A stretch of 51,329 bases of DNA from NCBI GenBank assembly GCA_025058535.1, contig JANXEL010000008.1:1-51329 (forward strand), in the 5' to 3' direction. The position numbers and the translations under genes were made by a program. This DNA comes from Ignisphaera sp. (GTDB lineage: Archaea; Thermoproteota; Thermoprotei_A; Sulfolobales; Ignisphaeraceae). The notes beneath the pieces are model-generated. The model was not told where the DNA came from and did not search any database. It saw nothing but the letters and a program-made list of their open reading frames with translations. Of this stretch, positions 1 to 15,250 are shown one piece after another (within the stretch, counting starts at the first letter, position 1; the number at the start of each line of letters is the position of its first letter).

Positions 1-160
1 TACTTATCTGTACATCAAATATTACTGTCTCTTCTCTTTTAACACCTGGTGGAAGTGCTAACTGGGCATCTAGATTCTGGATGGTCATTGTTGAAAGGAG
101 TGCTAGAATGATAACTATGGTTATAGATGTGGAGGCAAATGTTCTCCTACGTATTAACAT
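1..160 (-). CDS. Secreted protein N-terminus, probable ABC solute-binding protein (partial)
   Basis: The minus strand opens with ATG at 160-158 and stays open for 53 codons to the window edge, so the gene is cut. The product begins with basic residues (MLIRRR), then a hydrophobic stretch (about residues 8-23), then a polar region reading LALPPGVKREETVIFDV: a typical signal peptide plus mature start. Crenarchaeal family 5 extracellular solute-binding proteins often have a similar LPPG-x-R-x-ETV mature N-terminus, so an ABC sugar or peptide receptor is inferred. A GGTG ribosome site lies about 7 nt before the ATG and a TATA box at 201-208. It is upstream of, and in the same orientation as, nothing else visible here; the neighbouring beta-glucuronidase would suit an oligosaccharide receptor. 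The family call rests on the signal peptide and a short motif only. Confidence 0.55.
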   Translation of the reverse strand, partial: MLIRRRTFASTSITIVIILALLSTMTIQNLDAQLALPPGVKREETVIFDVQIS

Positions 161-200
161 GTGTAACACCAATTCCAGTTACCTGGATGGAGGTTGCTGA

Positions 201-291: not shown

Positions 292-2031
292 TTATGCCAA
301 GAATGTGGGTATGCTTCTAAATAGTGTCGATACTACTGCTACTGAGAGTTTTGGCTGTCTATCTCTACTGTAGACTCCCTTTCTATTTAGTATTGTTCTC
401 AATGGATTTTGTGGTGTTCTAAAGTCTGCAAAATTCCATATGTGTAGACCCACTATGTAGCTTTTTTTAATCAGAGCTCCGATGTAGCTTCTTATCATCT
501 CCGCCTGGTACTCCTCTGACCACATTTGTGGGGGATCACTGTGCAGTCCTAGATAAGCATCTGCTCCGAACTCCGTCACAATTATTGGTTTCTCCGGGTA
601 TCTCTGGTGGATCTGCTCTACCTCACTCAACATAACCTCTGTACCCCTATTTATATTACCCCATTCGGAGTACCAGCCACGGTAATAGTTGAGCGATATT
701 ACATCGACGTAGCCTAGAGCGAGATCCCTAGTTGATCTATGGGAGGCAAATGTCATTGGTCTCGAGGGATCTAGCTCCTTGATTGTCTTCGCCATCCTGC
801 CTATGAATTCTGCTACCTCTGGTACGTCACTCGGTGGTTCATTAGTTATACTGTACATTATTACTGAGGGCCTATTTTTGTGCTGCTGCACCATCTCCTC
901 AACGAACCTCTTTGCCTTTGCGAAGTATTCTTCGCTTCTGAATAATTTTGAGATCTCATCTCTACTCGCTATGCGATCCAAAGCTGAGTAGCATAAAGGA
1001 GGCTCCAGAATTACCATAAAACCAAATTCGTCCGCTAGATCCAGATGCTCATTAGAGTAGGGGTAGTGCGTAGTCCTAAATGAGTTTGCACCAATCTTCT
1101 TCATTAGGTAAAAGTCTCTTATAAGAACTGCTCCAGCCATATACTTACCCAGTACTGGGAAGTCTTCATGTCTACCGAATCCCTTGAGGAATACAGGCTT
1201 TCCATTCAAATATATTCTTCCCTCCCTCACCTCGACAGTCCTAAATCCTATACGTTCATAGATTAGATCCCTTAAGACACCATCCGTATAGATCTTGACT
1301 ACAAAGGTATAGAGATTAGGATCGTCGGGATTCCATGGCTTAATGTTATCAAACCTCTTCTCGTATTTAAATACCCCAGGCCTAACACCCCTTACAATCT
1401 CCTTGTGCACTACTCTTGACATGTCCTTATCCATCAATGCGAGCTCCACATCAAACTCTCTGTCGCAGACGTTATTGATGGATGCTCTAAAGCTCCCATC
1501 AGTGTCCGCACGAATGTTGACGTCTTCAACATAACACATATCTGTGAACTCCAGATATACAGGCCTGTGGATACCCCCATAATGGAAGAAATCAAAGGCT
1601 GTTACATTAAGCTCTCTCGCGGGGGGCAGATCAAATATCGATGGGGAATTATCTATCCTTACCACAACTCTATTAAGATCGCCATACTTGATACTGTCAA
1701 CTCTTAGCCTGAATTTTGTGAACGATCCTTCATGCTCTCCAGCAAAGCTACCGTTAACCCATACTCTAGTTCTATACCCTGCACCTTCAAATACAATCCA
1801 TGCTATTTTACTCTTTAGAGTACTATCAACGTAGAAGTCCCTCTGATACCAGGCTACACCTGTGAACTGATCCCAGTCAGGATTCTGCTCATTCCATGAC
1901 GATGGAACGTATATGAGATTATCCGAATTAAAACCTCTAAACCACTCATCTTTATCACCAATCAGCTCTCCATCTGTCCTAAACTTCCAAAAACCATCGA
2001 GAAAGATTTTGACTCTAAACCACGACTTCAA
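292..2031 (-). CDS. uidA: Beta-glucuronidase, glycoside hydrolase family 2
   Basis: Hydrolyses beta-D-glucuronides to free glucuronate. The 579-aa protein has the GH2 order: sugar-binding domain (about 1-170), immunoglobulin-like domain (about 170-270) and TIM barrel (about 270-579). The acid/base Glu is E398 in SITNEPPS and the nucleophile is E487 in VTEFGADA. The C-terminal stretch around 534-561 (NFADFRT, then NRKGVYSRDRQPK) matches bacterial GUS closely, including the N-x-K pair (N549, K551) that recognises the carboxylate of glucuronic acid, so glucuronidase rather than galactosidase or mannosidase. It lacks a signal peptide and should be cytoplasmic, implying uptake of glucuronides. The start is TTG at 2031, with a TATA box at 2066-2076 giving a very short leader. 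It lies 79 bp downstream of the uronate isomerase-like gene on the same strand. Confidence 0.93.
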   Translation of the reverse strand: MKSWFRVKIFLDGFWKFRTDGELIGDKDEWFRGFNSDNLIYVPSSWNEQNPDWDQFTGVAWYQRDFYVDSTLKSKIAWIVFEGAGYRTRVWVNGSFAGEHEGSFTKFRLRVDSIKYGDLNRVVVRIDNSPSIFDLPPARELNVTAFDFFHYGGIHRPVYLEFTDMCYVEDVNIRADTDGSFRASINNVCDREFDVELALMDKDMSRVVHKEIVRGVRPGVFKYEKRFDNIKPWNPDDPNLYTFVVKIYTDGVLRDLIYERIGFRTVEVREGRIYLNGKPVFLKGFGRHEDFPVLGKYMAGAVLIRDFYLMKKIGANSFRTTHYPYSNEHLDLADEFGFMVILEPPLCYSALDRIASRDEISKLFRSEEYFAKAKRFVEEMVQQHKNRPSVIMYSITNEPPSDVPEVAEFIGRMAKTIKELDPSRPMTFASHRSTRDLALGYVDVISLNYYRGWYSEWGNINRGTEVMLSEVEQIHQRYPEKPIIVTEFGADAYLGLHSDPPQMWSEEYQAEMIRSYIGALIKKSYIVGLHIWNFADFRTPQNPLRTILNRKGVYSRDRQPKLSVAVVSTLFRSIPTFLA

Positions 2032-2065
2032 CTCCGTTCACAGTAACTGCTGCAGGAAAGGATTA

Positions 2066-2076
2066 GATATATAAGG
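2066..2076 (-). promoter_or_regulatory. TATA box for beta-glucuronidase
   Basis: Minus strand reads CCTTATATATC, centred about 40 bp ahead of the TTG start at 2031. The predicted transcript start is near 2044, so the gene has its own promoter despite the upstream co-oriented gene. Confidence 0.45.
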
Positions 2077-2110
2077 TTTGCTCTAACATTACCGAGGTGG
2101 CCGTGATGAA

Positions 2111-3394
2111 CTACATCAAATTGTATAGAAACTTTGCATTGCTGCTCAGCAGCGCTTTTGCTACTTCAAGTGCTGTTCCCCTATCCATAAACCCCTCTTT
2201 AACAAATTCAGCTAATACGTGTGCAAGCTGACTCTTGACCAGTACTGCCTTTCCATAGACCCAGTCTGCTACATATGCATCACTGAAGAACCCACCTATT
2301 TTATTGTATGGAAGCATCTGAAGCCTTAAGCGGAGATACGATCTGATTATCTCTGGGTACATGGCGTACCACCAGTATCCACTTAAATAGACGTTGGGAT
2401 AGTTTTTAGCTATTACTGTAATTGGATGATTCAGTAGCATATCCGCAATAAACACATCAAATTTTACAGCTGGGTATGCTGAGAACAATCTCGCTAGATT
2501 GAGGATCTGATTAGGATTGAACAGCGTTATGGCATAGTCTGGTGGGGATGCGCCTGCCACAGGTCTCTTTACGCCCAGCATAAACTGAACCGCTAGCTTC
2601 TGATTTTCACAAAACTCAAGCACGACTCTGAGAATGTACGATGAAATGGTGTTTTTAGCTAGAGGATCTAGAGAACCTTGGGACCTTAGGACGCTTAAAT
2701 ACGTATCTACGGTAGACTTATCACTTCGGCTAATAGATAGGGAGATGAATTCGTCGTCCGGCTGAACATTTATCGTAACGGCTACGATGCTCCCTGCAAA
2801 TCCTCTGAGTAGAGTTGTAACCGCTTCCTCAAGAGTGCTAGAATTCATTATCTCCAGGGATGTGATCTCCTCTAAACGCCTTAAATTTGAATAGGTTAGG
2901 TTAGGCAGCAATGGATCCATTCTTAGCGCTCCCGTAAATAGATCCCTATCGTGCTGAACTGGTTTCTCCAGAGGATTTAACGTTAGAAAAGATTTTTCCA
3001 CTGGGACTTTATTCTTTAGGATGTGTTTAGCCCACGCCTCATCATTGAATTTTTGCTTTACTACATTGACCATCTCCTCTACACCATCCGGTTCTAGGCT
3101 CTTCAGATCAAATCCATATAGATCTCTAAGTATAGATTTTAGACACCAGAAGGTGGAGGTATTTCTTATGTACTTGATATAGTTTACTGCCACCTTTAGT
3201 CTGTCAATTCCTTTGCATTCCTCTATGAGCCTCCTTGGCATACCAGAGGACACCAGCTCTGTCACTATGTAGTGATAGAATACAATATCATCAATGCTTT
3301 TAGCTGAAAGTGATGCCGGATTCAAATGCTGGTGCACATCAACAACTGGTATACCCTTTATTTCATCAAATAGTTCGCTGTAGATAGCTGACAA
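2111..3394 (-). CDS. uxaC: Uronate isomerase-like amidohydrolase-fold protein
   Basis: Probable glucuronate/galacturonate isomerase (aldouronate to ketouronate). The N-terminus carries the metal-binding HxH as VVDVHQHLNP (H21, H23), followed by YHYIVTEL and an IRNTS segment as in divergent uronate isomerases. Later come the YLSGYWWYAM strand, comparable with the conserved G-WWF stretch of UxaC, and GGFFSDA near the C-terminus, comparable with the M/L-TDSRSF strand carrying the last Asp. The strand that usually reads LHIG reads VQFMLGVKR here, so one classical His seems absent; the family is likely but substrate and activity are less certain. Length (427 aa) is normal. Start is TTG with a GGTGAT ribosome site about 10 nt upstream. 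It sits between the transaldolase-like gene and beta-glucuronidase, which would supply its substrate. Confidence 0.72.
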   Translation of the reverse strand: MSAIYSELFDEIKGIPVVDVHQHLNPASLSAKSIDDIVFYHYIVTELVSSGMPRRLIEECKGIDRLKVAVNYIKYIRNTSTFWCLKSILRDLYGFDLKSLEPDGVEEMVNVVKQKFNDEAWAKHILKNKVPVEKSFLTLNPLEKPVQHDRDLFTGALRMDPLLPNLTYSNLRRLEEITSLEIMNSSTLEEAVTTLLRGFAGSIVAVTINVQPDDEFISLSISRSDKSTVDTYLSVLRSQGSLDPLAKNTISSYILRVVLEFCENQKLAVQFMLGVKRPVAGASPPDYAITLFNPNQILNLARLFSAYPAVKFDVFIADMLLNHPITVIAKNYPNVYLSGYWWYAMYPEIIRSYLRLRLQMLPYNKIGGFFSDAYVADWVYGKAVLVKSQLAHVLAEFVKEGFMDRGTALEVAKALLSSNAKFLYNLM

Positions 3395-3442
3395 GGGAGC
3401 GTATCACCAAGCATATTACTAATCTAGTGTGAAGGAGATTGG

Positions 3443-5584
3443 TTACGAAATTTTCATCTTTTTAATAAGATCCACGACTTTCGATCTGAATGCAAGATAC
3501 TCATTAGTGAACTCGTTCATCGTCTTTACACACGATCCGTACTTTGGCCAATCTACCGGACTAACACCCCTGTTTCCATAGTCTTTATCTATACCAACCT
3601 TTTTCAGAAGATCGTTCAACTCTGGAGAGGATTCATATGCCCTTACGAAATCGTCATACTGCATTAGTATCTCTAGGTACCTGCTATCTAAGTGCTGGAA
3701 TATGGATTCTCTTATTTCATCAAGCTCTATACCCTTTTCAGCAACCTCATTTACAACCTTTAGCTGATGGTCGGGAAACTCAGTGTTCGTCACATTTCTA
3801 GATGCAAATGTATAGAGTGTGTCGATAGGTTTTCTCTTAGATGCTGGAAGAAGATCTATTCTATCTATTACTGTCTCTGCCTGCTCTCGAGTTACTCCTA
3901 CTTCCTTAACAAGGTAATCTACCCACTTTTCACGGTTCCATGGCGAGAACAGTATCTCATAAACTCTCTGAGCTACAAAGGTTCCCGAGAGCTCTATAGC
4001 TTCTTCAAGCATTTTAACGTTTCTTAAAGTGTCTTCTCTAGAACCATACACACCCAGATCGGTTAGAGCATCTATGTACGGATCTCTCACCATATTCCTA
4101 CCTAGCACTCTATGGCTACACAGATAGTCTACAACTGCTTTCAAATCCCTTCTCTTTATCTCGTTCCACACATCCTCCTTTACCCCTAAACCCTTAGCCA
4201 ACCTATCTAGAACTACCCACCTTCTGTGTTCATCTACCTTCTCTAACCCACGTAAGAGAAGTCTAGACGATATGTCTTCTCTAAGGTGATCCTCTAGTCT
4301 ACCACCCATATTGGTATCGTAAGTCTGTGTCGGTGCTATACCCTTCTTTATAGCCTTTGCCATACCCCTCATGGCAGCAACCCCTATTAGAACCTCCTGA
4401 CTAACTGTGTAGCTTACAGTAATGTTCTGACCCACACCCATTTCATTTATCTTTTCAGCAATTTCGATTGCTGCAGGATATGCTGCTGCTACCTTTATAA
4501 CTAGGTCCGGCCTCCCCTTTTCAGCAACACTATACCCCCACCAGAGGTATTCATCATACACCACTAGATCTCTCTCTAGTCTGGTGGCAAAGATTTTAAC
4601 AGCCTCAACACTTCTTTCAACATCATGTGCAATCAGTGGATTAAGTTGGTAGCTTACCAGACCATCATGATATTTTGATAGGATGAAAGGTATTCTAAAT
4701 ACGTAGAAGTTCTCCAATAGTGCAAACCTTGTTGCTTCCATGGTTATATCATCAGCATATCTCTCTGGATCCTTAAACCACTCTGGATGCTCTTTTACGA
4801 GAACCTCTTCTGCGTACTTCCTAAATCTATTCCACAATTCCGGATCATCATCATAGGCTCTAGCTGCTAGGACAGGATTAGTTGAAACCTGGACGAATCC
4901 TAGATGCCTCAAGAATCTCAGTCCAAGCGCATAGTCATTGCCAAACTTACATAGATTTAGATTGTATGCCTTTCTATAGAAGTTATTTCTGATCTCGTTT
5001 ACCATGGCCTCTATGTAGCTTCTGGCACAGCCAGATTTTGATACGCTATTCATGACCCTCTGTGCAATATCCGCAACAAGGCTTCTACCTTTATTGACCT
5101 TCATTAGCTCCCTGAGCTGAAGCTCAACGACAGCTTTGAGGATTGCTGGTTCACCAAGTTCTTTTCTTTCAATTTCTTCCCATTCATCAAACGCATTCTT
5201 AATTGCTGTTATAGCTTGTTCAACCATATCTAATGAGAAACCTGCCCATCTACTTTCAGCACCAGCTAAATTAAACAATATTTCAAACATTGTATCGTAC
5301 AGTCTCGCTCTCCTAATAATTCTCTCCTCAACACCAGGTTTATCATCTATTCTCTCACTTCTAATAAGCAAGCCTATCCTCCTGATGAGAGAACCTATAA
5401 CATCTGTCAGACAGCCAGCCATTTCTGGATGCATGAGATGGTCGGCCGCGAGTTTTGTCCATCCCATTAAAGCTGTTTTAATTATGTGATCAGCGTGATC
5501 TATGCGTGGCTCAATTGGTAAGACTAGGCTCTCCACCCTAGCTCTTTTTAGAATATCCATCACGTCCTCTTTCAATGACTTCAT
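3443..5584 (-). CDS. Large transaldolase-like protein
   Basis: A protein of 713-718 aa whose middle resembles the transaldolase TIM barrel: VSTNPVLAARAY (about 238-249, compare TTNPS-L), VIKVAAAYPAAIE (367-379) with K369 as the likely Schiff-base lysine, and NITVSYTVSQEVL (392-404, compare N-x-T-L-x-F-S-x-x-QA). Numbers are from an ATG at 5599; I prefer the ATG at 5584 because GGTGG lies 8 nt upstream of it. Ordinary transaldolases are 210-340 aa; this one has about 230 extra N-terminal and 270 extra C-terminal residues, mostly helical in appearance. The uronate gene neighbourhood suggests an aldolase or aldose-transfer step in sugar-acid breakdown, but the substrate cannot be read from the sequence. 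There is no sign of fusion to another known enzyme. Confidence 0.68.
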   Translation of the reverse strand: MKSLKEDVMDILKRARVESLVLPIEPRIDHADHIIKTALMGWTKLAADHLMHPEMAGCLTDVIGSLIRRIGLLIRSERIDDKPGVEERIIRRARLYDTMFEILFNLAGAESRWAGFSLDMVEQAITAIKNAFDEWEEIERKELGEPAILKAVVELQLRELMKVNKGRSLVADIAQRVMNSVSKSGCARSYIEAMVNEIRNNFYRKAYNLNLCKFGNDYALGLRFLRHLGFVQVSTNPVLAARAYDDDPELWNRFRKYAEEVLVKEHPEWFKDPERYADDITMEATRFALLENFYVFRIPFILSKYHDGLVSYQLNPLIAHDVERSVEAVKIFATRLERDLVVYDEYLWWGYSVAEKGRPDLVIKVAAAYPAAIEIAEKINEMGVGQNITVSYTVSQEVLIGVAAMRGMAKAIKKGIAPTQTYDTNMGGRLEDHLREDISSRLLLRGLEKVDEHRRWVVLDRLAKGLGVKEDVWNEIKRRDLKAVVDYLCSHRVLGRNMVRDPYIDALTDLGVYGSREDTLRNVKMLEEAIELSGTFVAQRVYEILFSPWNREKWVDYLVKEVGVTREQAETVIDRIDLLPASKRKPIDTLYTFASRNVTNTEFPDHQLKVVNEVAEKGIELDEIRESIFQHLDSRYLEILMQYDDFVRAYESSPELNDLLKKVGIDKDYGNRGVSPVDWPKYGSCVKTMNEFTNEYLAFRSKVVDLIKKMKIS

Positions 5585-5687
5585 AAAGCTAACCACCATG
5601 TTTTCAAATTTGAAATAGAAAATCTTGGCTTCCCTTAAAAATTTATCTCTAGTTACATAATAGTTAAAAGTGTATATCGAAATTACT

Positions 5688-6494
5688 CTAAATTAAATTC
5701 GAACTGTTGAGACATCCTTTCATAAAGTCTATATATAGGGGTATTACTGTATCCGGATCTTCAAGATCAGGATGCCACATCTTCTCCCATTCAATAGAGA
5801 TATAACCCTTGTAGCCCCTTGATTTAAGATCGTTTACAACTCTACAAATAGGCACAATTCCTTCCCCGGGCCTTACAAAGACCCTCTTACCCTCGACAAT
5901 AATAAAGTCCTTTATATGCACATGCACTATCCTGTCTGCAATTAACGGAAACACCTCCTCATGCTTCTCTCCAACCATGATCATGTTAGCTACATCGTAT
6001 ACTATTCTTATATTTGGATCTAATCTTTCAAGAAGCCTCAGTAGTATTCTAACTCTTGTCAGCTCGTCGTGAGTCTCTATGGCTATATATACATTGTGTT
6101 CATATGCGTGCTCTGCCATTCTATTTAAACTCTCAGCTATTCTTCTGATCGAACTATCCACATCATCTGGAAACTTACCGGCATAGACCCTTACAGCCTT
6201 TGCTCCAAGTTCTTCAGCCATTAGGACGAGAACCTTTAGCAGATCCTCGTTCCTTCTCCTCTCCTCATCCAGAATGGCTGAGAACCTTGCATATCCAGCA
6301 ATAGAGGCTATCCTCACACCGCTTTCCTCTACGATCTTTATGTAGCTCCTATCAATGGGATAGTGCGGTTTAAGATGAATACCATCATCAGCCACTCTCA
6401 GCTCTATTGCATCTAAACCAAATTTTCTAGCTCTTCCGAGAACCTCCTCGATTCTTAAGTGAGGGTATGCAAGAGTAGTGAAGGTGAATTTCAT
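5688..6494 (-). CDS. Sugar phosphate isomerase/epimerase family TIM barrel (AP_endonuc_2)
   Basis: A 268-aa xylose-isomerase-like TIM barrel. All four usual metal ligands are present: E140 (IAIETHDE), D167 (IVYDVANM), H193 (HVHIKDF) and E235 (YISIEWE). The family includes isomerases, epimerases, dehydratases and 3-keto-glycoside eliminases, so the reaction is open. Its ATG overlaps the stop of the upstream oxidoreductase by 4 nt (ATGA), meaning the two are translated in concert and probably act on successive intermediates. Cytoplasmic; no signal peptide. Confidence 0.82.
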   Translation of the reverse strand: MKFTFTTLAYPHLRIEEVLGRARKFGLDAIELRVADDGIHLKPHYPIDRSYIKIVEESGVRIASIAGYARFSAILDEERRRNEDLLKVLVLMAEELGAKAVRVYAGKFPDDVDSSIRRIAESLNRMAEHAYEHNVYIAIETHDELTRVRILLRLLERLDPNIRIVYDVANMIMVGEKHEEVFPLIADRIVHVHIKDFIIVEGKRVFVRPGEGIVPICRVVNDLKSRGYKGYISIEWEKMWHPDLEDPDTVIPLYIDFMKGCLNSSNLI

Positions 6495-7561
6495 AGTATT
6501 CCATCAGCCTCCAGTGGAAGTTTTACATGGGTTTTCCTCTTACTCGAGTAGTATATAGCTCTAACTACCTCAAGACTCTTCAACCCCTCCTCACCTGTTA
6601 TCGGAAAATCTTCCTCGTTGAGTAACGCAGTAAAGAAGTCTTCAAATAACTTCCTGTGGAGCCCTCCTGGAACCTTTATTGTTTCAGTTGAATATCCTGG
6701 CCTCCTCTCTATAGATACACCATTTTCACTCTTTAGCAGTATCAACTCATTATCCCACAGCTCAGCCTGTCCCTTTGAACCAAATATTCTTATCCTCCTA
6801 TACTGATGCGTATTGGGTTTTGTAAAGAGGTTTGCCGTAAGAACGCCGTAACCTTCCTTTCTATACTTTATCAATCCTATACCAACGTCCTCTACATCTA
6901 TCGACGGATGCGAGAGGTTGTCGATGTACCCGACCACTTCATCAGCTTCACCTCCAAACCACAGCATCAAGTCTATTGTATGTATAGCCTGGTTTATCAG
7001 CGCCCCTCCACCCTCAGTAGCCCACATACCCCTCCAGCTCCTAGCGAGTTCGTCCTTAAGATAGTACGCCTCTTGGTCCCTAAACCACATCATTTCACCT
7101 ACGATAAGTAGTGGCTTACCAATAATATTATCGTCTAGATGCCTCTTGAGCTCCCTTACACCATCCGCATAACGTCCCTGGTAAATCACGCCCAGTTTAA
7201 CTCCTTTACGCCTAGCCTTCAACACCATCTCCTTTGCAGCCGTTACCGTCGTTGCAATAGGCTTCTCGACAATGACGTGCTTACCGAATTCTATAGCATA
7301 CATAGCCTGCCAGGCATGTAGATAATGTGGAGTTGCTATCGTTATAACATCTACCTCGGGATCCCGAACAACATCATCATAGGAGTAGTACCCCTTGCAA
7401 CCGTATCTAGATGAAAATTCATCTATATGGACTCTACTTAGGGAGGTAATGCCAATAAGTTTCACATACTCTGTAGACCTCTCAAGATCTTTAATAGCCT
7501 CAACATGCACACGTCCGATAGCTCCAATACCCACCACTGCCACGCCTATCTTACGGGGCAT
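6491..7561 (-). CDS. Gfo/Idh/MocA family NAD(P)-dependent sugar oxidoreductase
   Basis: Rossmann-fold dehydrogenase of about 356 aa. The N-terminal VAVVGIGAIGRVH is the dinucleotide-binding loop, and VEKPIATT is the family EKP motif whose Lys takes part in catalysis; the second half is the usual alpha/beta substrate domain with a GGGALINQAIHTIDLMLW segment (G-G and H residues typical of the active site). In-frame ATGs exist at 7582, 7573 and 7561. A TATA box at 7592-7600 is too close for 7582 to be used; 7561 has GGGTG 5 nt upstream and is chosen. Candidate roles are ketouronate reduction or 3-oxidation of a glycoside. It overlaps the downstream isomerase by 4 nt. Confidence 0.85.
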   Translation of the reverse strand: MPRKIGVAVVGIGAIGRVHVEAIKDLERSTEYVKLIGITSLSRVHIDEFSSRYGCKGYYSYDDVVRDPEVDVITIATPHYLHAWQAMYAIEFGKHVIVEKPIATTVTAAKEMVLKARRKGVKLGVIYQGRYADGVRELKRHLDDNIIGKPLLIVGEMMWFRDQEAYYLKDELARSWRGMWATEGGGALINQAIHTIDLMLWFGGEADEVVGYIDNLSHPSIDVEDVGIGLIKYRKEGYGVLTANLFTKPNTHQYRRIRIFGSKGQAELWDNELILLKSENGVSIERRPGYSTETIKVPGGLHRKLFEDFFTALLNEEDFPITGEEGLKSLEVVRAIYYSSKRKTHVKLPLEADGIL

Positions 7562-7591
7562 GAAAGCACCCATTGTACCCATTCACTACAG

Positions 7592-7616
7592 ATATATAAA
7601 TTTTTAAAATTTTAAT
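7592..7616. promoter_or_regulatory. Divergent promoter region with back-to-back TATA boxes
   Basis: Very AT-rich segment between the oxidoreductase (minus) and a TIM-barrel gene (plus). Minus strand reads TTTATATAT at 7592-7600; the plus strand has a run ending TTTTAATA near 7616, and the 12-bp palindrome TTAAAATTTTAA lies between. It supports coordinated expression of the two divergent sugar genes. Confidence 0.4.
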
Positions 7617-7686
7617 ACACTCTGTCTGTATGTCACGAAGCTGTTAGCACAGGAGTGGGTGGGCACCACTGTCAAATCTATCGATA

Positions 7687-8478
7687 GTGTCTGACGAAAT
7701 TTCGCAGGATTTTGAACACGCCCTAAAGGTTATTAGAGAGCTTGGAGCTGGATATGTCGAGCTTAGAACATTGTGGAATAGATATGTTGTAGAGTTATCT
7801 GACGTGCAGATTCACGACATAAAGAGTCTCATAGACAGGTATGGAATTAAAGTCTCACATGTATGTTCCCCTACATTCAAGATTTACATCAATGATGAGG
7901 TGGGATATAGGGAGCATCTAGCTATATTAAGAAGAGCAATAGAGATATCAAAATTCTTCAACCTAGGATACACAAGAGTATTTACATTTTGGTGGCAGGG
8001 ATCCTTAGATCTATATATTGATAAGATAGTTGAAAAGTTTCAGCCTGCCATAGAATTAGCCGAAAAAGAGGGTATCTTTTTAATAATAGAAAATGAGTAC
8101 TCGTGTTTCATAGGAACTGGTAGTGAGCTTCAACAATTTCTAGAGAAGTTAAAGAGTAAATGGGTGAAAGTGTTGTGGGACCCCGGCAACGCATTTTTTG
8201 CAAGGGAGACGCCGTACCCATATGGCTATAATAAAATTAAGGATCACGTGCTCTACATGCATCTAAAAGACGCCTCGGTGGAGAATGGTAAATTTGTATT
8301 TAAACCTATTGGAAAGGGTATGATAGACTATGAAGGGCAGCTAAAGGATGTAATAAATAAGGGCATTATACTGTCTCTAGAGACGCACTACACACCACGA
8401 TCTGGGAGCAAAGAGGAGGGAACTAGAGAATCATATACAGGATTAATTAATATAATAAAAAAGATTGAGGGCGGGTAG
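7687..8478 (+). CDS. Sugar phosphate isomerase/epimerase family TIM barrel
   Basis: Second xylose-isomerase-like barrel of the cluster, about 263 aa from GTG 7687. Metal ligands: E135 (LIIENEYS), D165 (VLWDPGNAF), H192 (LYMHLKDAS) and E232 (LSLETHYTP). The GTG falls inside what looks like the first beta strand: reading the frame upstream gives PLSNLSI ahead of VSDEIS, back to a stop at 7645-7647, without any ATG, GTG or TTG. The real start may therefore be CTG at 7669, which has GGTGGG at 7658-7663 just before it. Divergent from the Gfo/Idh gene and convergent with the GNAT gene. Substrate unknown. Confidence 0.82.
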   Translation: MSDEISQDFEHALKVIRELGAGYVELRTLWNRYVVELSDVQIHDIKSLIDRYGIKVSHVCSPTFKIYINDEVGYREHLAILRRAIEISKFFNLGYTRVFTFWWQGSLDLYIDKIVEKFQPAIELAEKEGIFLIIENEYSCFIGTGSELQQFLEKLKSKWVKVLWDPGNAFFARETPYPYGYNKIKDHVLYMHLKDASVENGKFVFKPIGKGMIDYEGQLKDVINKGIILSLETHYTPRSGSKEEGTRESYTGLINIIKKIEGG

Positions 8479-8514
8479 TGGCCAGGATTTCATAATCCTT
8501 CGAAATTATTTTTA

Positions 8515-9468
8515 TTATATGGTTTTAACCATTATGTGATAGTGTTTAACCCTACATACACCTGGTACTTGAGTGTAGAAGAATAGATGCGATGTCCACG
8601 GTATCACTGCATATCTGAAACCCAGTTGCTTTAAATCATATAGTGCTTTAAATAGTAGAATTGTACCAACACCACGCCTCCTCTTACTCGGATCTACTCC
8701 CGTAGGTCCAAATTCATTCCGCTTCATACGGAGATACACAGCAAAACCTATTGTGTCACCGCTCTGATCTGCAATCCATATTGTAGGAGGCTTACTGTCA
8801 AAGGAGTGTAGCACCTCTAAGCGCCAGAACGGATTATTAAACGTCTTACCAACCCATTCACTTATGAGTACAGCCTCTTCCTCCCTTCCCCTTCTGAATG
8901 TTATGCCCTCTGATAAAAGAGTCTGTTCGATTTTTCTAACGCGTGACGGATAGTAAAACTCCGCCAAATTAACTTCATAGCTAACTGTGTCCTCTTGTTT
9001 TCTAAAACCATATAGTTCAAAAACTTCAACGTAATTTTCATAAAGTATGTTTATTCCTGGCATGAAATAGTATGGTGCATAGGCATGGAGTACAATACAC
9101 TTCTTACCGCGTTTCTTCACCATCTCTTCAAATATCGATAGTAGATTCATAAAAACCGCTCTCCAAGTATCTGGAGGTAATGTAGGGTCTATCGCTAGAT
9201 CCTTTATCCAGATGTACTCCTTAAATTTCTCCACTGCCTCTTTAGGTTCTTTAACAATTTCAACACCCAGTAAGAATCCCCTCACTCTGTTTTCTTCATC
9301 AACTGCAAACAGATTGAGTTCTTGATCAAAGTTTTCATCATTTAGTGTGAATGATGTATATATATTGCACTCCACACAATCATAGGGAAAAGCAGTGTTG
9401 TGAAGTCTACAGGACTGATCTATGAGCCTAACATCTTTCTCTTCTTTATATGTAATCACATTGATCAA
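8515..9468 (-). CDS. GNAT family acetyltransferase, two GNAT-like halves
   Basis: A 317-aa protein. The C-terminal half has the acetyl-CoA pyrophosphate loop RRRGVGT (263-269) after the strand ending PTGVDP, and finishes with typical GNAT strands. The N-terminal half (about 1-160) has GNAT-like features (LFAVDEENRVRGFLLGVE, then IKDLAIDP) but a weak loop, suggesting a degenerate duplicate. Start is TTG 9468; GTG at 9459 is an alternative. It sits inside the sugar region, but its acceptor is not evident. Confidence 0.7.
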   Translation of the reverse strand: MINVITYKEEKDVRLIDQSCRLHNTAFPYDCVECNIYTSFTLNDENFDQELNLFAVDEENRVRGFLLGVEIVKEPKEAVEKFKEYIWIKDLAIDPTLPPDTWRAVFMNLLSIFEEMVKKRGKKCIVLHAYAPYYFMPGINILYENYVEVFELYGFRKQEDTVSYEVNLAEFYYPSRVRKIEQTLLSEGITFRRGREEEAVLISEWVGKTFNNPFWRLEVLHSFDSKPPTIWIADQSGDTIGFAVYLRMKRNEFGPTGVDPSKRRRGVGTILLFKALYDLKQLGFRYAVIPWTSHLFFYTQVPGVCRVKHYHIMVKTI

Positions 9469-9541
9469 GATGCCCCAGAAGTATGAATTTAGGATCTAGT
9501 TTAAAAGTACTATAGTTGCCACAGCTATACACTTAGTCTCG

Positions 9542-10483
9542 CTATAGTATCATATCTAGATATAGTTGAAATGCCCTTAATAAGACACCCTTTCCAGAGT
9601 TCAGTACCTCAAATGGGTTTTGATCCTGTTCGGGTCTTATTTCAAAACTAATGGAGCCTCTATACCCTATGTCATGCAGCACTCCTAGCAGCTTTGCTAC
9701 ATCTACCTCCGTATTGAGTGCTCCCGGTCTGTAGAAGCCCGGATGTGTATCCAATAGCTTATCGCCTACCCTCTTTCCGCATCCTATATGTATGTGACCT
9801 ACAAATTCAGGATATGATCTTAATACACTAGGATCTTCATTCAGCAGCGGTGCGTGGCTCAGGTCCCACATAATGTAGATGTTCTTGGCACTATCCCTTA
9901 CTCTTTCTACAATCCTTACAGTATCTGGTAGTAGTCCAGCAAGTCTTTTTCTATCCCATGCGGTATCAAAGGTCTCTAAAAATACCTTCATGTCATACTT
10001 AGAAGCTTCACTGCTTATCTCGACGAGGCTTTTGATGAGAGCCTCTGTAGCAGCTTCCTTGTTGGGGCCTTCTACATTAGGTCCTGAACACAGACCTACA
10101 GCCTTTAGCCCTCTCATACCTGCTCTACGAATTTCACTAATCACAAATTCTACAGCTCTCCTCCTCTCTTGCTCGTCTACCGCATTTATATTAATTCCTT
10201 TATTAATTATAAGTGGTTGGAGTGCCAATGCAAATTTCTTTCTATAGCTCTTATTCAATTCCACAACTTTATTCCACTCCAAATCGTCCGCTATGGGAGT
10301 CATTTCAATTAAATCAAAGAATGGATCAGTAATTAAGGGCTTTAACCTCTCGCTGAAGTCTCTGGTTGATTGCATTAGATCCGGAAAAATCATGAAGGCA
10401 ACAATACCTACATCCCAGGGAAACTTAGCTACAATTTCATGTCCATCTTTAATAACATAGCCATATAGCATGTTTCTTCCCAT
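9542..10483 (-). CDS. Sugar phosphate isomerase/epimerase family TIM barrel
   Basis: Third xylose-isomerase-like barrel, 313 aa from ATG 10483, preceded by AAAGGAGT 5-6 nt upstream (a TTG at 10498 lies within that leader and is rejected). Numbered from the TTG, the metal ligands are E175 (VFLETFDT), D212 (IMWDLSHAP), H237 (GHIHIGCGK) and E286 (ISFEIRPEQ). Longer than the other two barrels, with an extra segment at about 60-110. Divergent from the UxaE-type epimerase gene, so it may act on the same sugar acids. Not recognisable as mannonate dehydratase, although a role in that position cannot be excluded. Confidence 0.8.
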   Translation of the reverse strand: MGRNMLYGYVIKDGHEIVAKFPWDVGIVAFMIFPDLMQSTRDFSERLKPLITDPFFDLIEMTPIADDLEWNKVVELNKSYRKKFALALQPLIINKGININAVDEQERRRAVEFVISEIRRAGMRGLKAVGLCSGPNVEGPNKEAATEALIKSLVEISSEASKYDMKVFLETFDTAWDRKRLAGLLPDTVRIVERVRDSAKNIYIMWDLSHAPLLNEDPSVLRSYPEFVGHIHIGCGKRVGDKLLDTHPGFYRPGALNTEVDVAKLLGVLHDIGYRGSISFEIRPEQDQNPFEVLNSGKGVLLRAFQLYLDMIL

Positions 10484-10500
10484 TTGTACTCCTTTCAAAA

Positions 10501-10510
10501 TATTTAAAAG
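10501..10510 (+). promoter_or_regulatory. TATA region between the isomerase and uxaE
   Basis: Plus strand TATTTAAAAG, followed by the 10-bp palindrome AAAAGCTTTT (10506-10515). The position fits a start near 10531 for the uxaE gene, leaving GGTG at 10537-10540 in a short leader. Confidence 0.4.
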
Positions 10511-10545
10511 CTTTTAGTTAGTGAACTCTCGTATGCGGTGTCAAG

Positions 10546-12003
10546 ATGTACCTAGGTAAGATGCCTCGACCTGCTTTTGGAATCAGAATACCAGAGATCG
10601 TGGTACCTGCAGTGCTTAAGAGTTTTAAAGAATTGAATATTGCTGGAACACTGATGCTCTCGTTTAATAGAGAAACCGCTCCAGAGAAGTTCATATCTTC
10701 TCTAAATCCCAAGCACTTTTACCTGGGCCACACAGGGACATCAATCAGTAGGTACATAGCTAGTGCCACAGACTTCTCTAAACAGTTTTCAATACCAATA
10801 GAGATTGAAGCGGACCACGTATCCATTATGGGTAGCGTTGAGAGAGCTTTGAAAAGAATTGCAGGTGTGGCAATAGAGGAGAGCTTAAGTGATAGCGAGA
10901 TAAGCGAATCCCTAGGTTACATTGAAGAGGAATTTAAGGAGGTGTCCAGAGCTGGGGGTGTAGACTTCGTAACGATAGATACTTGCGAACTTGTAGGTAC
11001 AAAAATTGAAATGCTTTCTAATGAAGACATCTTGTATTTGTATGAAAATAGGATTGAGCCTGACTATAGGAGGTCTCTTGAAAATAGATTTCTACGAAGT
11101 TTCAACTTTGTCTCAGATGATAGAGTGCTCTTCATCAAGTTTACTAGGATGGACGTAGCTAAGCTTGCATTGAAGTACGATAAGAGCATAAGATACATTG
11201 AAAAGGTGGTGGATATAGTTAAGAAATATAACGAGAGGGAGTTTGGAATAGAGGTAGCGTTGGACGAACTTCCGCTAAAAACCGGTGTAAAGGATGCACT
11301 ATTCTACGCAGCAGAGCTGATACACCGGGGAATCAATATAGACTTTCTGGCACCAAATATAGGGTTTAGAAAGAGGGAAGATTACACAGAAGATCTCTCT
11401 ACGCTTTACGAACATGTTAGGAATCTCCATACGGTGCTTTCATCAATTGGTGTGTACATATCAATACACTCTGGCAGTGGTGCTCATCCATACTCTGATA
11501 AGGGTGCTGGAGTGTGGGAGGTCGTTAGGAGGGCTACAGGTGGTTTAGTAAAGTATAAGATGTCCGGAGTTCTGATACAGCTTCTCCTTGAAATTCTATA
11601 TCAATCGGAACTCGGAACAAAACCTAGGAGAATATATGATGAGATTTACGATTCTGTACTCGAACACATATACTCTGTGGTAAAGTCTAAGGACGGTATC
11701 TATTCCCCTGAGCTGGAAAAACTCTTGAAAGCATATGAGGAGAGTAGCGCTAGAGATCCAACGTACAAGAGAAACCCCAGGGCAGATGTATTTAGACACT
11801 ACTTCTATCTGTTTCAAACAATTAGAGATGCAGGGGGCTTTAGGAAATTAAGAGAAGAACTAATCAATCTGCTTGAGAGCGATGCCTATGTTAGGAAGAA
11901 GTACGAGGTTGAGGTGAATAACCTCATAGATAGGTTTTCCAAGGCTCTAGGCTTTACTAACAATATCAATAAGTATAAAGTAGTGGTGATGCCAACAGAA
12001 TAG
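10546..12003 (+). CDS. uxaE: UxaE-type tagaturonate/fructuronate epimerase
   Basis: A 485-aa protein matching the general pattern of the UxaE (tagaturonate epimerase) family, which interconverts D-tagaturonate and D-fructuronate. Supporting stretches: FYLGHTGTSISRYI (58-71), EIEADHVSI (87-95) with D90 and H91 as likely metal ligands, LAPNIGFRKREDY (268-280), and IHSGSGAHPYSDKG (307-320), followed by RRATGGLVKYKMSG. The H-S-G-S-G strand and the T-G-G-x-x-KYK-x-SG motif are the parts I rely on most. Start ATG 10546 has GGTG 5 nt upstream. With beta-glucuronidase and the uronate isomerase-like protein, this lets gluc- and galacturonate converge on one ketouronate. It is divergent from a TIM-barrel isomerase and followed by a decayed region. 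Confidence 0.75.
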   Translation: MYLGKMPRPAFGIRIPEIVVPAVLKSFKELNIAGTLMLSFNRETAPEKFISSLNPKHFYLGHTGTSISRYIASATDFSKQFSIPIEIEADHVSIMGSVERALKRIAGVAIEESLSDSEISESLGYIEEEFKEVSRAGGVDFVTIDTCELVGTKIEMLSNEDILYLYENRIEPDYRRSLENRFLRSFNFVSDDRVLFIKFTRMDVAKLALKYDKSIRYIEKVVDIVKKYNEREFGIEVALDELPLKTGVKDALFYAAELIHRGINIDFLAPNIGFRKREDYTEDLSTLYEHVRNLHTVLSSIGVYISIHSGSGAHPYSDKGAGVWEVVRRATGGLVKYKMSGVLIQLLLEILYQSELGTKPRRIYDEIYDSVLEHIYSVVKSKDGIYSPELEKLLKAYEESSARDPTYKRNPRADVFRHYFYLFQTIRDAGGFRKLREELINLLESDAYVRKKYEVEVNNLIDRFSKALGFTNNINKYKVVVMPTE

Positions 12004-12049
12004 TTGCAAGGAATGCTGATCTGAGCAACCGATTTATTCAATATTATGT

Positions 12050-13360
12050 AGCGTCTATCATTGTATTTCTTGTCAACACCTAGCTAGGTAGCTCTATTCA
12101 TACCATACCATCAATTAGATGGCCTATATTGCAGGGGTTCAGAGCATCGTTCAGCACCTTCCTACTGAGGTATTGTTACCTCCTATCTCCTGAACCTGCT
12201 TAAGAGTGCCTATGAACACCACAATTAATTTAGGTAGACACACATTAGACTTTCTTAACGTTTGGTTATACATCTATATCCAATGAGTAGCCCTACATAA
12301 AGTTGCCGTGCAAGTTTTCTAACATTTTCTATTTCTAATAACGCATCTGCAACACTCTAGTATTGCTCCTTCTCACTATCTATTTCACTATCTACTGAAC
12401 TAAAGCTTCATTGCAGCGAGTTTTAGGATCTCCACCTATACTGGTGCTAAAATTTCAATTTTTCAATTACTAAATCTAATTGTGAAAGCATTTCTGTGCC
12501 CTTAACTAGTAGGATGATAGCATAACTATCTCTGGAATTTGATCTTATTCAAACCTACCAACCCCTATTTAATCTGCAGCACCAAATGTTCTAGAAAGCC
12601 CGGTAGCAAATGACTCCCAAGCTGACACTACCAAAAAGTTTCTTCAATCCCTCACGAGGTTTAGAATGACAACCCTCGCTCCACACCCATCTAGGGTGGC
12701 AAGGATCTAGCCGATACAGCTTCGCAAATACCTTGAGTCATAGAAATTCTATGCAGCATATTCTGATGCATCTATAAAATGAATTCTCCATATATGGATA
12801 TATGGTGTAGCACTTGCATTCTGCACGACCAGCCTTACTTCATCACTCTTTCTTAACCAAAATCCTTGACCACCGAACATATCGTAATCCTCGTTAATTT
12901 TCAGCTAGTGAGCCGACCTCCTTTTTTCACATTAGCATTCTCCATTATATCTACGCCAAACTCCTTCATTGTGCACCACTTCAAATGTCAGCCTTTCTAT
13001 AGTGAGTAGCACATATATGGTGCCTGTGGCACTCCTGCACATATTTATTGCTATCTAGAACTTTTGAACTTTTTCAAACCCCTCTAGACTCTAACCTTCC
13101 TAAGCAGAGCCTCGGCAATTTCGATTATAAGAATAGCCGTTGCTCTTCCTCCCTCCTCTTAGAGTATATCTAATATAGCAGTGTTGTTGCCGACAATAAC
13201 ACAGTCAAACCTAGCACCTCTTACTCTAGTCATCTTTATTGCAGTACTAAAATCCGCAACACTCCGTGCGACTAGTTATTGCAGTGAAAACACCCACATC
13301 ATTTGCTACTTCTACTTACGACACCGACGCGCCTATGGGTGATGCTGCACTTAGATATAA
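12050..13360 (-). pseudogene. Decayed gene, M20 metallopeptidase-like relic
   Basis: The whole 12,004-13,677 gap lacks an intact gene, but its minus strand still carries protein-like pieces broken by stops and frameshifts. At about 13,250-13,316 it reads VEVANDVGVFTAITS; after a shift, about 13,160-13,250 reads GARFDCVIVGNNTAILDI, a stop, then GRATAIL. The order F-T-A then VIVGEPT then G-RGRA is that of M20 peptidases (ArgE/DapE/CPG2), with EPT here read as NNT. A 47-codon open piece lies at 12,752-12,892 (EDYDMFGGQGFWLRK), and a later one reads VADALLEIENVRKLARQLYVG. The first recognisable piece (LSAASPIGAS) begins at 13,354. Identification as M20 is tentative; that this is an eroded gene is more certain. 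Confidence 0.5.
12078..12089. repeat. 12-bp perfect palindrome
   Basis: ACCTAGCTAGGT, in the relic region just after uxaE. No protein or promoter context makes it an obvious operator. Confidence 0.3.
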
Positions 13361-13677
13361 TTGACTATTCTTATTAATGAAATATAGTAATATGGTATGA
13401 ATGAGTTGAACTCTAATCGGCAGGGTTGATGTCTAGGGTTTTACTATTAAATTCTAAATAGCAATTTAATGCTCATCACAGTCTTCTGCGTATGGTCATC
13501 ACAGTGGTGCAAACTCTACCAACAACACCTAGATTTGACCAGAAAACCATTCAGGTCAGGTTTCTTAGGAGCTCCAGAGTTGGTGCCACTAAAGTTTCTA
13601 TTATTTAATTTACAATCAAGCGTGAATGATTAAAGGTAAAGATGTAAACCAGCTCTTAACTACTTTATTCACTGTTT

Positions 13678-14556
13678 TTAGAGAGATGCCTTAATCCTCT
13701 CTTCAAGCTCTCTTACCAGAGGCTCAACGAATGACAGTATTTGGCTTGAGTACCTCACTTTACCCCTTATAACCCTAATCATTCTCACATTTTCGCTTTC
13801 ATCAAATGGTAGGGCTCTTATATCAGCAAGCTTTGGATGAGCATAGAATACGCTGTTGAATGTATATGATTGTACCTTTCCCTCGAGCTCCCATTTCATT
13901 GCCATTGATCTGTATGCCTCATCTACAATCCTTTTAACTCTTCTTCTATACAGCTCAATATTTAGAGTTTCGTTTCTCCTAAATCTTGTCAGCACTGCGC
14001 CTAGGAATGGAGGTCTTTCGTTTGGTGGGATACCTCTAATGTCTCTAATTAGATAATATAGTGCTGTGAGAGCAAAACTTGTTTTCGTTACGGGAGTTAT
14101 CAAAGCATCGGCAATCTTTATTAGAGGCCCGATGAGGCCGTACATCTGAGGCGGGAGGTCTAAGACTATAAATTCAAACTCTTTCAACTTTTCATCAATT
14201 TCCTTCCTGAGTTCCCGAATCCTCTCTGCTGGAACTATCAAGAATTTTGCCAGTCCAATATATTCGGGCTTTGATGGAACTATGGTAAGATTATCCGTGA
14301 TACTATATATCATCGGCTCTCCAGAGCCTACTATCCACTCTAAAGAGAAAACCCTTCCCTGAGTCTTAGCATAGTGGGAAATCTTATCAAAATCTATAGA
14401 GGAGATGAACACCTCAGTAATATTGGATTGCGGATCTGCATCAATAATTACAGTTTTTCTCCCAAAACGTTCAGCAAGCGTAGCAGCCACGATGCTCGCT
14501 AGCGTGGTCTTGCCCACTCCACCCTTATAGTTAGCAACTGCAATTGTTATGGGCAC
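13678..14556 (-). CDS. ParA/Soj-family P-loop ATPase
   Basis: A 292-aa ATPase of the ParA/MinD class. Deviant Walker A KGGVGKTT at 11-18 with the signature first Lys, and VIIDADPQSN at 36-45 as the switch; FIVLDLPPQ is the Walker B equivalent. The C-terminal third (about 190-290) is longer than in minimal ParA proteins. Such proteins position DNA or protein complexes by ATP-driven dimerisation. No ParB or centromere-like repeat array was seen next to it, so it is an orphan ParA here; partner and cargo are unknown. It is flanked by the decayed region and the nitroreductase. ATG start at 14556. Confidence 0.85.
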   Translation of the reverse strand: MPITIAVANYKGGVGKTTLASIVAATLAERFGRKTVIIDADPQSNITEVFISSIDFDKISHYAKTQGRVFSLEWIVGSGEPMIYSITDNLTIVPSKPEYIGLAKFLIVPAERIRELRKEIDEKLKEFEFIVLDLPPQMYGLIGPLIKIADALITPVTKTSFALTALYYLIRDIRGIPPNERPPFLGAVLTRFRRNETLNIELYRRRVKRIVDEAYRSMAMKWELEGKVQSYTFNSVFYAHPKLADIRALPFDESENVRMIRVIRGKVRYSSQILSFVEPLVRELEERIKASL

Positions 14557-14713
14557 AATTCACCACTTTTCCATAATATTAAATTCTTAGTCCGGATATA
14601 AATCTTTATAGAAAGAATATTGTATGATACACGTAGCTATTGCCTTGCTTCTCAATTCACGATTTAAGTAAAAAATGGATTGTCTCCGTGTTACTTTCCA
14701 ACAGTTGCGTAGA

Positions 14714-15250
14714 TTATGGCTGAAGGGCAGCACCGTATTTATTTAAGAACGCTATATCCTTTAGTTCCTTCCTAGATTTTGCTGTGGGTTGCTCATCTGG
14801 GTAACCAATAGCAAGCATCGCTATGGGTACATAGTTGCTTGGGAGATTCAATATCTTCTGAACATCCTCTATATTTCTAAGAGTCTGCAGCCAGACAGTT
14901 CCCAACCCTAAAGCATGGGCAGCAAACATTATGTACATAGTTGCACATGCACAGTCAACCTGGTAAGATTCTGGTGATATATCCTTGTTGCATGCTACCA
15001 CTACTCCCAATGGTGCGCTCTCTAGCGGGTATGCCCACCTGTGAATCTTTGCAAGTCTATCCTTGACCTCCTTATCTGTAACCACTATAAATATCCACGG
15101 CTGCCTATTACCTGCACTTGGAGCGTATCTGGCCACATCAAGGATCCTCTTAACAGTATTCATGTCTACGGGTACTGGCTTGAATTTTCTAATGCTCCTT
15201 CTAGTTAGTAAGAAGTTTAGCTGCTCATGACTTATCGTCTGCATATTCAT
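14714..15250 (-). CDS. Nitroreductase family FMN oxidoreductase
   Basis: About 178 aa from ATG 15250. Family features: RRSIRKFKPVPVD near the N-terminus (FMN phosphate-binding Arg pair), ARYAPSAGNRQPWIFIVV (P-S-x-N-x-QPW), AAHALGLGTVWLQ and AIGYPDEQP near the end. An in-frame ATG exists upstream at 15331, but its 27 extra residues are unlike the family, and a TATA box (TTTTATATCC on the minus strand, 15285-15294) lies inside that extension, predicting a transcript start near 15263. Physiological substrate unknown; such enzymes reduce quinones, nitro compounds or act on flavins. Confidence 0.85.
   Translation of the reverse strand: MNMQTISHEQLNFLLTRRSIRKFKPVPVDMNTVKRILDVARYAPSAGNRQPWIFIVVTDKEVKDRLAKIHRWAYPLESAPLGVVVACNKDISPESYQVDCACATMYIMFAAHALGLGTVWLQTLRNIEDVQKILNLPSNYVPIAMLAIGYPDEQPTAKSRKELKDIAFLNKYGAALQP

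Follow-up and report, generated by a model that had tools for sequence, protein, structure and literature searches.

How does an archaeon that seems to turn glucuronides into fructuronate finish the pathway when the usual lower enzymes are missing? The question is raised by a gene cluster of Ignisphaera sp. It occupies the first 13.7 kb of one contig of the genome (C69). The contig, 51,329 nucleotides long, is called the window here. A sequence-only reading had placed a uronate catabolic cluster at 292–12003, and the genes that it named were all found there. It had also proposed that the route begins as in Thermotoga and ends differently. The alternative ending can now probably be identified as a 718-aa transaldolase-like protein (TAL; 3443–5599, minus strand) together with glycerate enzymes. 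We consider it likely that the hexuronate pathway encoded here has an aldol split into two C3 units as its lower half.

The absence of the canonical lower pathway was established by family searches, each with positive controls that gave signal, and draft genomes can hide genes. UxuA (PF03786), the C-terminal domain of UxuB/UxaB (PF08125; fructuronate/tagaturonate reductase) and Eda (PF01081) were found in none of 12 TAL genomes. Among 15 further TAL genomes, UxuA appeared in one. With the co-conservation described below, these absences bear out the proposal of the same entry with a different ending. The expectation that no complete lower pathway lies elsewhere in this genome held for UxuA, PF08125 and Eda, but one protein of the dihydrodipicolinate synthase (DHDPS)/2-keto-3-deoxygluconate (KDG)-aldolase type is present. 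Such proteins, assigned by family membership only, occur in 7 of the 12 genomes. Therefore, a KDG aldolase is possible in some TAL genomes. The DHDPS family was not found in the near-complete G003, G004, G006 and G009. As for KDG kinase, PfkB proteins lie near TAL in L017 and L025. The hexuronate and inositol catabolism of Thermotoga maritima (UxaC, UxaE, UxuB, UxuA, KdgK, KdgA; IolG-M-N-O) has the same entry enzymes as the TAL genomes. Its full IolG-IolM-IolN-IolO set leading to tagaturonate is also present in TAL-bearing relatives. Unlike T. maritima, the TAL genomes have TAL and the glycerate enzymes in place of UxuA, the UxuB/UxaB family and Eda.

TAL, already described as an oversized transaldolase-like protein, matched PF00923 with 33 bits against a cut-off of 27. 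Matches over the cut-off were obtained in all of the 12 TAL genomes. The TAL profile, the final AlphaFold2 (AF2) model and the residue conservation were all derived from a 45-row alignment. The model shows an eight-strand barrel (pLDDT 94.3, pTM 0.91). Its top 33 Foldseek matches were all of transaldolase or fructose-6-phosphate aldolase (FSA) type, with a best E of 1.5e-7, a probability of 1.00 and a TM-score by target reaching 0.71. The nearest solved folds are the long-type transaldolases. A first model from 12 rows had a poor barrel and weak fold matches, and was superseded. Searches of the PDB sequences with a single TAL sequence or with 12 sequences gave no match; matches came only from the 45-row profile and the fold comparison. 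In a profile-profile comparison by hhalign, TAL did not match the small archaeal transaldolases and FSAs. The residues were therefore mapped by means of the long-type transaldolases and the spacing of motifs.

Nine residues are invariant in all 45 TAL sequences: D222, N241, Q318, K369, N392, T394, R434, S587 and R589. In the profile alignment, K369 falls on the Schiff-base lysine (strand 4) of 3r5e and 7oey. Q318 is aligned with the catalytic Glu of transaldolase (E96 of TalB). TAL thus lacks the Glu that marks transaldolase proper (EC 2.2.1.2) and carries the Gln that marks FSA. The entry 4rxg (FSA Q59E) shows that Q59 is the wild-type residue, and 4rxg and 4rz5 are mutants at exactly these positions. 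Judged by motifs, x-x-R following strand 6 and A-S-x-R following strand 7, R434, S587 and R589 match the phosphate-binding positions of TalB, where the phosphate is held by two Arg and one Ser (PMC3962226). By analogy, these three residues may hold the carboxylate in TAL. The TIM barrel, the Schiff-base Lys and the TNP, N-x-T and A-S-x-R motifs are shared with the FSA/transaldolase family (PF00923). TAL differs from this family in carrying a helical N-terminal domain and an insertion of ~140 residues between strands 6 and 7. Judged from its sequence and model, TAL is probably a fructuronate (trans)aldolase with Lys369 as the putative Schiff-base residue.

From the observed genes, conserved residues, co-occurrence and missing families, and from the modelled fold, we infer every reaction of TAL and of its TIM-barrel partner TIMc (9542–10498, minus strand), as well as the fate of the dihydroxyacetone (DHA) unit. 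The glucuronidase would free glucuronate from a glucuronide, and the UxaC-like enzyme would convert it into D-fructuronate. UxaE would supply D-fructuronate from D-tagaturonate coming from the galacturonate or inositol routes. TAL would form a Schiff base with fructuronate at Lys369 and cleave the C3–C4 bond, giving tartronate semialdehyde and a DHA unit. This unit would be released as DHA and passed to DhaKL, or be placed on glyceraldehyde-3-phosphate to give fructose-6-phosphate. Tartronate semialdehyde would become hydroxypyruvate by the action of TIMc or an IolO-like stand-in. Finally, GyaR would reduce hydroxypyruvate to D-glycerate, and glycerate 2-kinase would convert this into 2-phosphoglycerate.

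The genomic partners of TAL were surveyed in 14 stretches from relatives and 54 named loci. Of 10 relatives in the same genus, 8 carry TAL, and its occurrence within the order is scattered. Among 147 genomes searched in the order, TAL and UxaE occur together in 13, UxaE alone in 3, TAL alone in 2 and neither gene in 129. Both genes are therefore present in 13 of the 18 carrier genomes (Fisher p 4e-14), a p value that is only indicative because related genomes are not independent. UxaE is found within 30 of ~60 TAL loci, with a gene overlap of 4–23 bp in seven. The overlap is 4–10 bp in Deltaproteobacteria/Thermodesulfobacteriota and 23 bp in a Thaumarchaeota locus (L077). TAL, UxaE and TIMc form the conserved core, while the inputs vary (glucuronidase, UxaC, KduI or inositol genes). 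In the bacterial locus L060, the genes run GyaR-UxaE-TAL-UxaC, and the UxaC is a canonical glucuronate isomerase (499 bits vs a cut-off of 387). Thermotoga-type inositol genes lead to TAL, UxaE and GyaR in L077, where the order is IolG-IolM-IolN-IolO-TAL-UxaE-GyaR, and in L036. The respective scores in L077 and L036 were 546 and 521 bits for IolM (cut-off 450), 302 and 242 for IolN (245), 286 and 372 for IolG (355), and 271 and 224 for IolO (300). The anticipated co-conservation of the cluster thus stood for the core only; the Gfo/Idh oxidoreductase, two of the TIM barrels and the GNAT protein are common to the window and its closest relative, G008, alone.

A split of fructuronate at C3–C4 would be expected to lead to exactly two halves, glycerate and DHA, and these match the neighbouring enzymes. 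The glyoxylate/hydroxypyruvate reductase GyaR is encoded in 14 TAL loci (602 bits in L022, 488 bits in L077; cut-off 455) and the DUF4147-MOFRL glycerate 2-kinase (GlyK) in five. In G009, GlyK, TAL and TIMc form an apparent operon with a 36 bp gap followed by a 4 bp overlap. In the genome of the window, GyaR is on C23 and GlyK on C1, away from the cluster. TIMc, a 318-aa protein resembling sugar epimerases and hydroxypyruvate isomerases, is found in 16 loci and is paired with GyaR in L047. Its closest PDB entries are D-tagatose 3-epimerase (5e-10) and TM0416. Against the hydroxypyruvate isomerase model TIGR03234 it scored 39 bits, with a cut-off of 353, and is a superfamily member only. TIMc is proposed to isomerise tartronate semialdehyde to hydroxypyruvate; it could alternatively be a C3 epimerase. 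As for the DHA half, an intact DhaK-DhaL pair (DHA kinase) adjoins UxaE in G008. At 12003–13678, the window carries a decayed dhaL-dhaK in exact synteny with this pair (L030, ~1.7 kb). The dhaL remnant (ADP-binding subunit; 12334–12498, minus strand) is collinear with and 71% identical to the intact gene in blastn (E 3e-13). The dhaK remnant (12617–13312, minus strand) contains stops and frame changes; it matched the G008 DhaK in tblastn (E 4e-9) and the gene in blastn (70.5% at 13052–13312, E 1.5e-23). The possibility of an unannotated gene in the gap after UxaE was thus ruled out. The DHA kinase was lost recently in this species, with the rest of the cluster intact.

Several observations weigh against the pathway as drawn. 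As enzymes of general use, GyaR and glycerate 2-kinase occur in most of these genomes. TIMc resembles C3 sugar epimerases more closely than it does hydroxypyruvate isomerases of proven function. DhaK is encoded in only 2 of the 12 TAL genomes. The Tyr that usually makes FSA an aldolase (Y131; F178 in TalB) corresponds to Met431 in a gapless motif alignment of TAL, and an invariant Tyr427 lies on the same strand. Several Bathyarchaeota loci carry TAL with no UxaE, GyaR or uronate isomerase within 10 kb. Because these partners are missing, the bathyarchaeal TAL may act on other substrates. The bathyarchaeal loci without UxaE and GyaR are L054, L055, L056, L062, L063, L065 and L069, and in several of them TAL adjoins genes for an alpha/beta hydrolase and for a beta-CASP exonuclease-like protein.

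Which epimer TAL would split has to be considered at this point. Fructuronate is configured at C3 and C4 as fructose is; tagaturonate is the epimer of fructuronate at C4. The known DHA enzymes of the transaldolase fold are 3S,4R selective (PMC3962226), which is the configuration of fructuronate and not of tagaturonate. Therefore, the glucuronate route should not need UxaE, and the inositol and galacturonate routes should. TAL might instead act on tagaturonate or another epimer, with UxaE running from fructuronate to tagaturonate; this would explain why UxaE is retained in most glucuronide clusters, where fructuronate would already be available. We regard it as unlikely, since UxaE is missing from two genomes that are 99% complete, G003 (which has UxaC and TAL) and G006, and is frameshifted in G009 (L026:7514-8966), where TAL is intact. 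Fructuronate is thus favoured as the substrate. Next to the UxaE of G009, a GH4 glycosidase gene (13543-15067) also appears split.

If the fructuronate split is right, it may still run as a strict transaldolase reaction, moving the DHA unit onto glyceraldehyde-3-phosphate to give fructose-6-phosphate and tartronate semialdehyde with no free DHA. This variant, an exact analogue of the sulfofructose transaldolase SftT (PMC11659671), has a chance that we put slightly short of even. Transfer is favoured because DhaK is rare, with 10 of the 12 TAL genomes lacking it, and because dhaKL has decayed in the window beside an intact TAL; the nearest folds are also long-type transaldolases. Release is favoured by the invariant Gln318, which like the Gln of FSA takes the place of the catalytic Glu, and by the DhaK-DhaL pair inside the cluster of the closest relative. 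A quite improbable explanation is a KDG route by unrecognised enzymes, in which the Gfo/Idh protein is a fructuronate reductase, a TIM barrel is a mannonate dehydratase, the DHDPS-family protein is a KDG aldolase, and TAL acts elsewhere. Candidates for each step do exist in the window and the genome. However, the Gfo/Idh protein and two TIM barrels belong to the clusters of two genomes only, and it is TAL that constantly accompanies UxaE in both archaea and bacteria. Besides, the UxuA and UxuB families are absent from the 12 genomes, and four near-complete TAL genomes lack both the DHDPS family and Eda. It is very unlikely that TAL, as a transaldolase homologue with altered catalysis, serves this pathway by a reaction other than that of an aldolase, such as isomerisation or epimerisation. 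Its sequence is very divergent, its helical N-terminal and inserted domains are large, and it has extra conserved residues (Y427, E607, H611) that are atypical of transaldolases. On the other hand, the core catalytic positions are all invariant, and the neighbours that handle glycerate and DHA require a C3+C3 split.

The entry genes agree with what the sequence-only reading had described. At the contig end, an open ORF (2–172, minus strand) encodes only the N-terminus of a secreted family-5 ABC solute-binding protein, the receptor-like start noted earlier. Its start QLALPPGVKREET is common to a protein of G005 (L020:3873-6236) that is a full SBP_bac_5 member (157 bits) and adjoins a glucuronidase gene. 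By this likeness, it is a probable component of a glucuronide or oligosaccharide importer. The GH2 beta-glucuronidase (292–2031, minus strand) scored 226 bits with Glyco_hydro_2_C and 431 bits with PRK10150, and the uronate-binding N-x-K motif is present as N-R-K in LNRKGVYSRDRQPK. Its gene adjoins TAL in 6 loci of the survey. The divergent UxaC-like protein (2111–3394, minus strand) reached 16.7 bits as a single sequence, under the Pfam UxaC cut-off. Its family profile matched 4i6v (5e-57), BH0493 (3e-21) and TM0064 (1e-11) in the PDB. Although the general UxaC model does not reach its cut-off, the profile match places the protein among uronate isomerases of the BH0493 type, and it is predicted to convert glucuronate into fructuronate. 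The tagaturonate/fructuronate epimerase of UxaE type (10546–12003, plus strand) is a divergent archaeal form according to the family alignment, with 82 bits for PF16257 against a cut-off of 27.

The remaining genes of the cluster are accessory. Family matches placed two proteins in AP_endonuc_2 (TIM barrel a, 5688–6494, minus strand; TIM barrel b, 7687–8478, plus strand) and one in Gfo/Idh/MocA (6491–7582, minus strand), and with TIMc, also an AP_endonuc_2 match, these make up the three TIM barrels and one oxidoreductase reported before. All three barrels are xylose-isomerase-like. A GNAT acetyltransferase-like protein (8515–9468, minus strand) is probably unrelated. The order TIM barrel-Gfo/Idh-TIM barrel at 5688–8478 resembles gene sets for oxidative glycoside cleavage (3-dehydrogenase with an AP_endonuc_2 protein). 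In G005, a close homologue of the Gfo/Idh protein adjoins a DHDPS-family protein (L090).

Other arrangements were seen around TAL. In G012 (L028, L029), a divergent paralogue (29% over 270 aa of the barrel) replaces TAL beside UxaE and TIMc. In G006 (L019:10814-12223), a protein that by eye resembles L-fucose/arabinose isomerases occupies the usual place of UxaE beside TIMc, and an FGGY-type kinase is nearby. In three Thermofilaceae loci, a DeoC/LacD-family aldolase (FBA/ADH-synthase-like) is encoded directly upstream of TAL (L035:9108-9914, L038:1648-2481, L039:9118-9951); an IolO-like TIM barrel is present in these loci and UxaE is not near. In L044, L045, L046 and L048, TAL is followed by genes for an IolO-like protein, a uroporphyrinogen-decarboxylase (UROD)-like methyltransferase and glycerate 2-kinase. 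GH42 genes are also downstream of TAL in L044, L046 and L048. Upstream in L044 are another UROD-like gene and one for a radical SAM protein. A small ordinary FSA-type transaldolase adjoins an FGGY-like kinase and an ABC sugar-binding-like protein in L110-L112 (G008, G004, G001), in a separate sugar pathway.

The closest precedent is the sulfo-TAL pathway for sulfoquinovose, with the isomerase SftI and the sulfofructose transaldolase SftT (PMC11659671). The logic is the same: an aldose with an acidic group at C6 becomes a ketose, and an enzyme of transaldolase fold removes the C1–C3 DHA unit, leaving an acidic C3 aldehyde. The sulfo-TAL substrate is a sulfonate and its enzyme has ~220 aa, whereas here the substrate would be a carboxylate and TAL has ~720 aa with extra domains. 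Unlike in sulfo-TAL, the acidic product of the TAL route can be completely consumed by way of glycerate. The available sections of a 2019 review on hexuronate catabolism treat isomerase, oxidative, fungal and animal routes and no aldol split of fructuronate (PMC6353982). In the open-licence literature, no description of fructuronate with transaldolase or tartronate semialdehyde was found. We consider it reasonably probable that uronates and inositol have here a new lower pathway found in two domains of life, in which a giant transaldolase-family enzyme of thermophilic archaea and several uncultured bacterial lineages cleaves unphosphorylated fructuronate to give two C3 units and the KDG branch is unnecessary. 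If this is true, hexuronates would have a further lower route, the carboxylate counterpart of transaldolase-based sulfoglycolysis. The use of glucuronides and inositol by archaea that lack UxuA, UxuB or Eda would be explained, and an uncharacterised family of ~720 aa enzymes in archaea and bacteria would gain a function.

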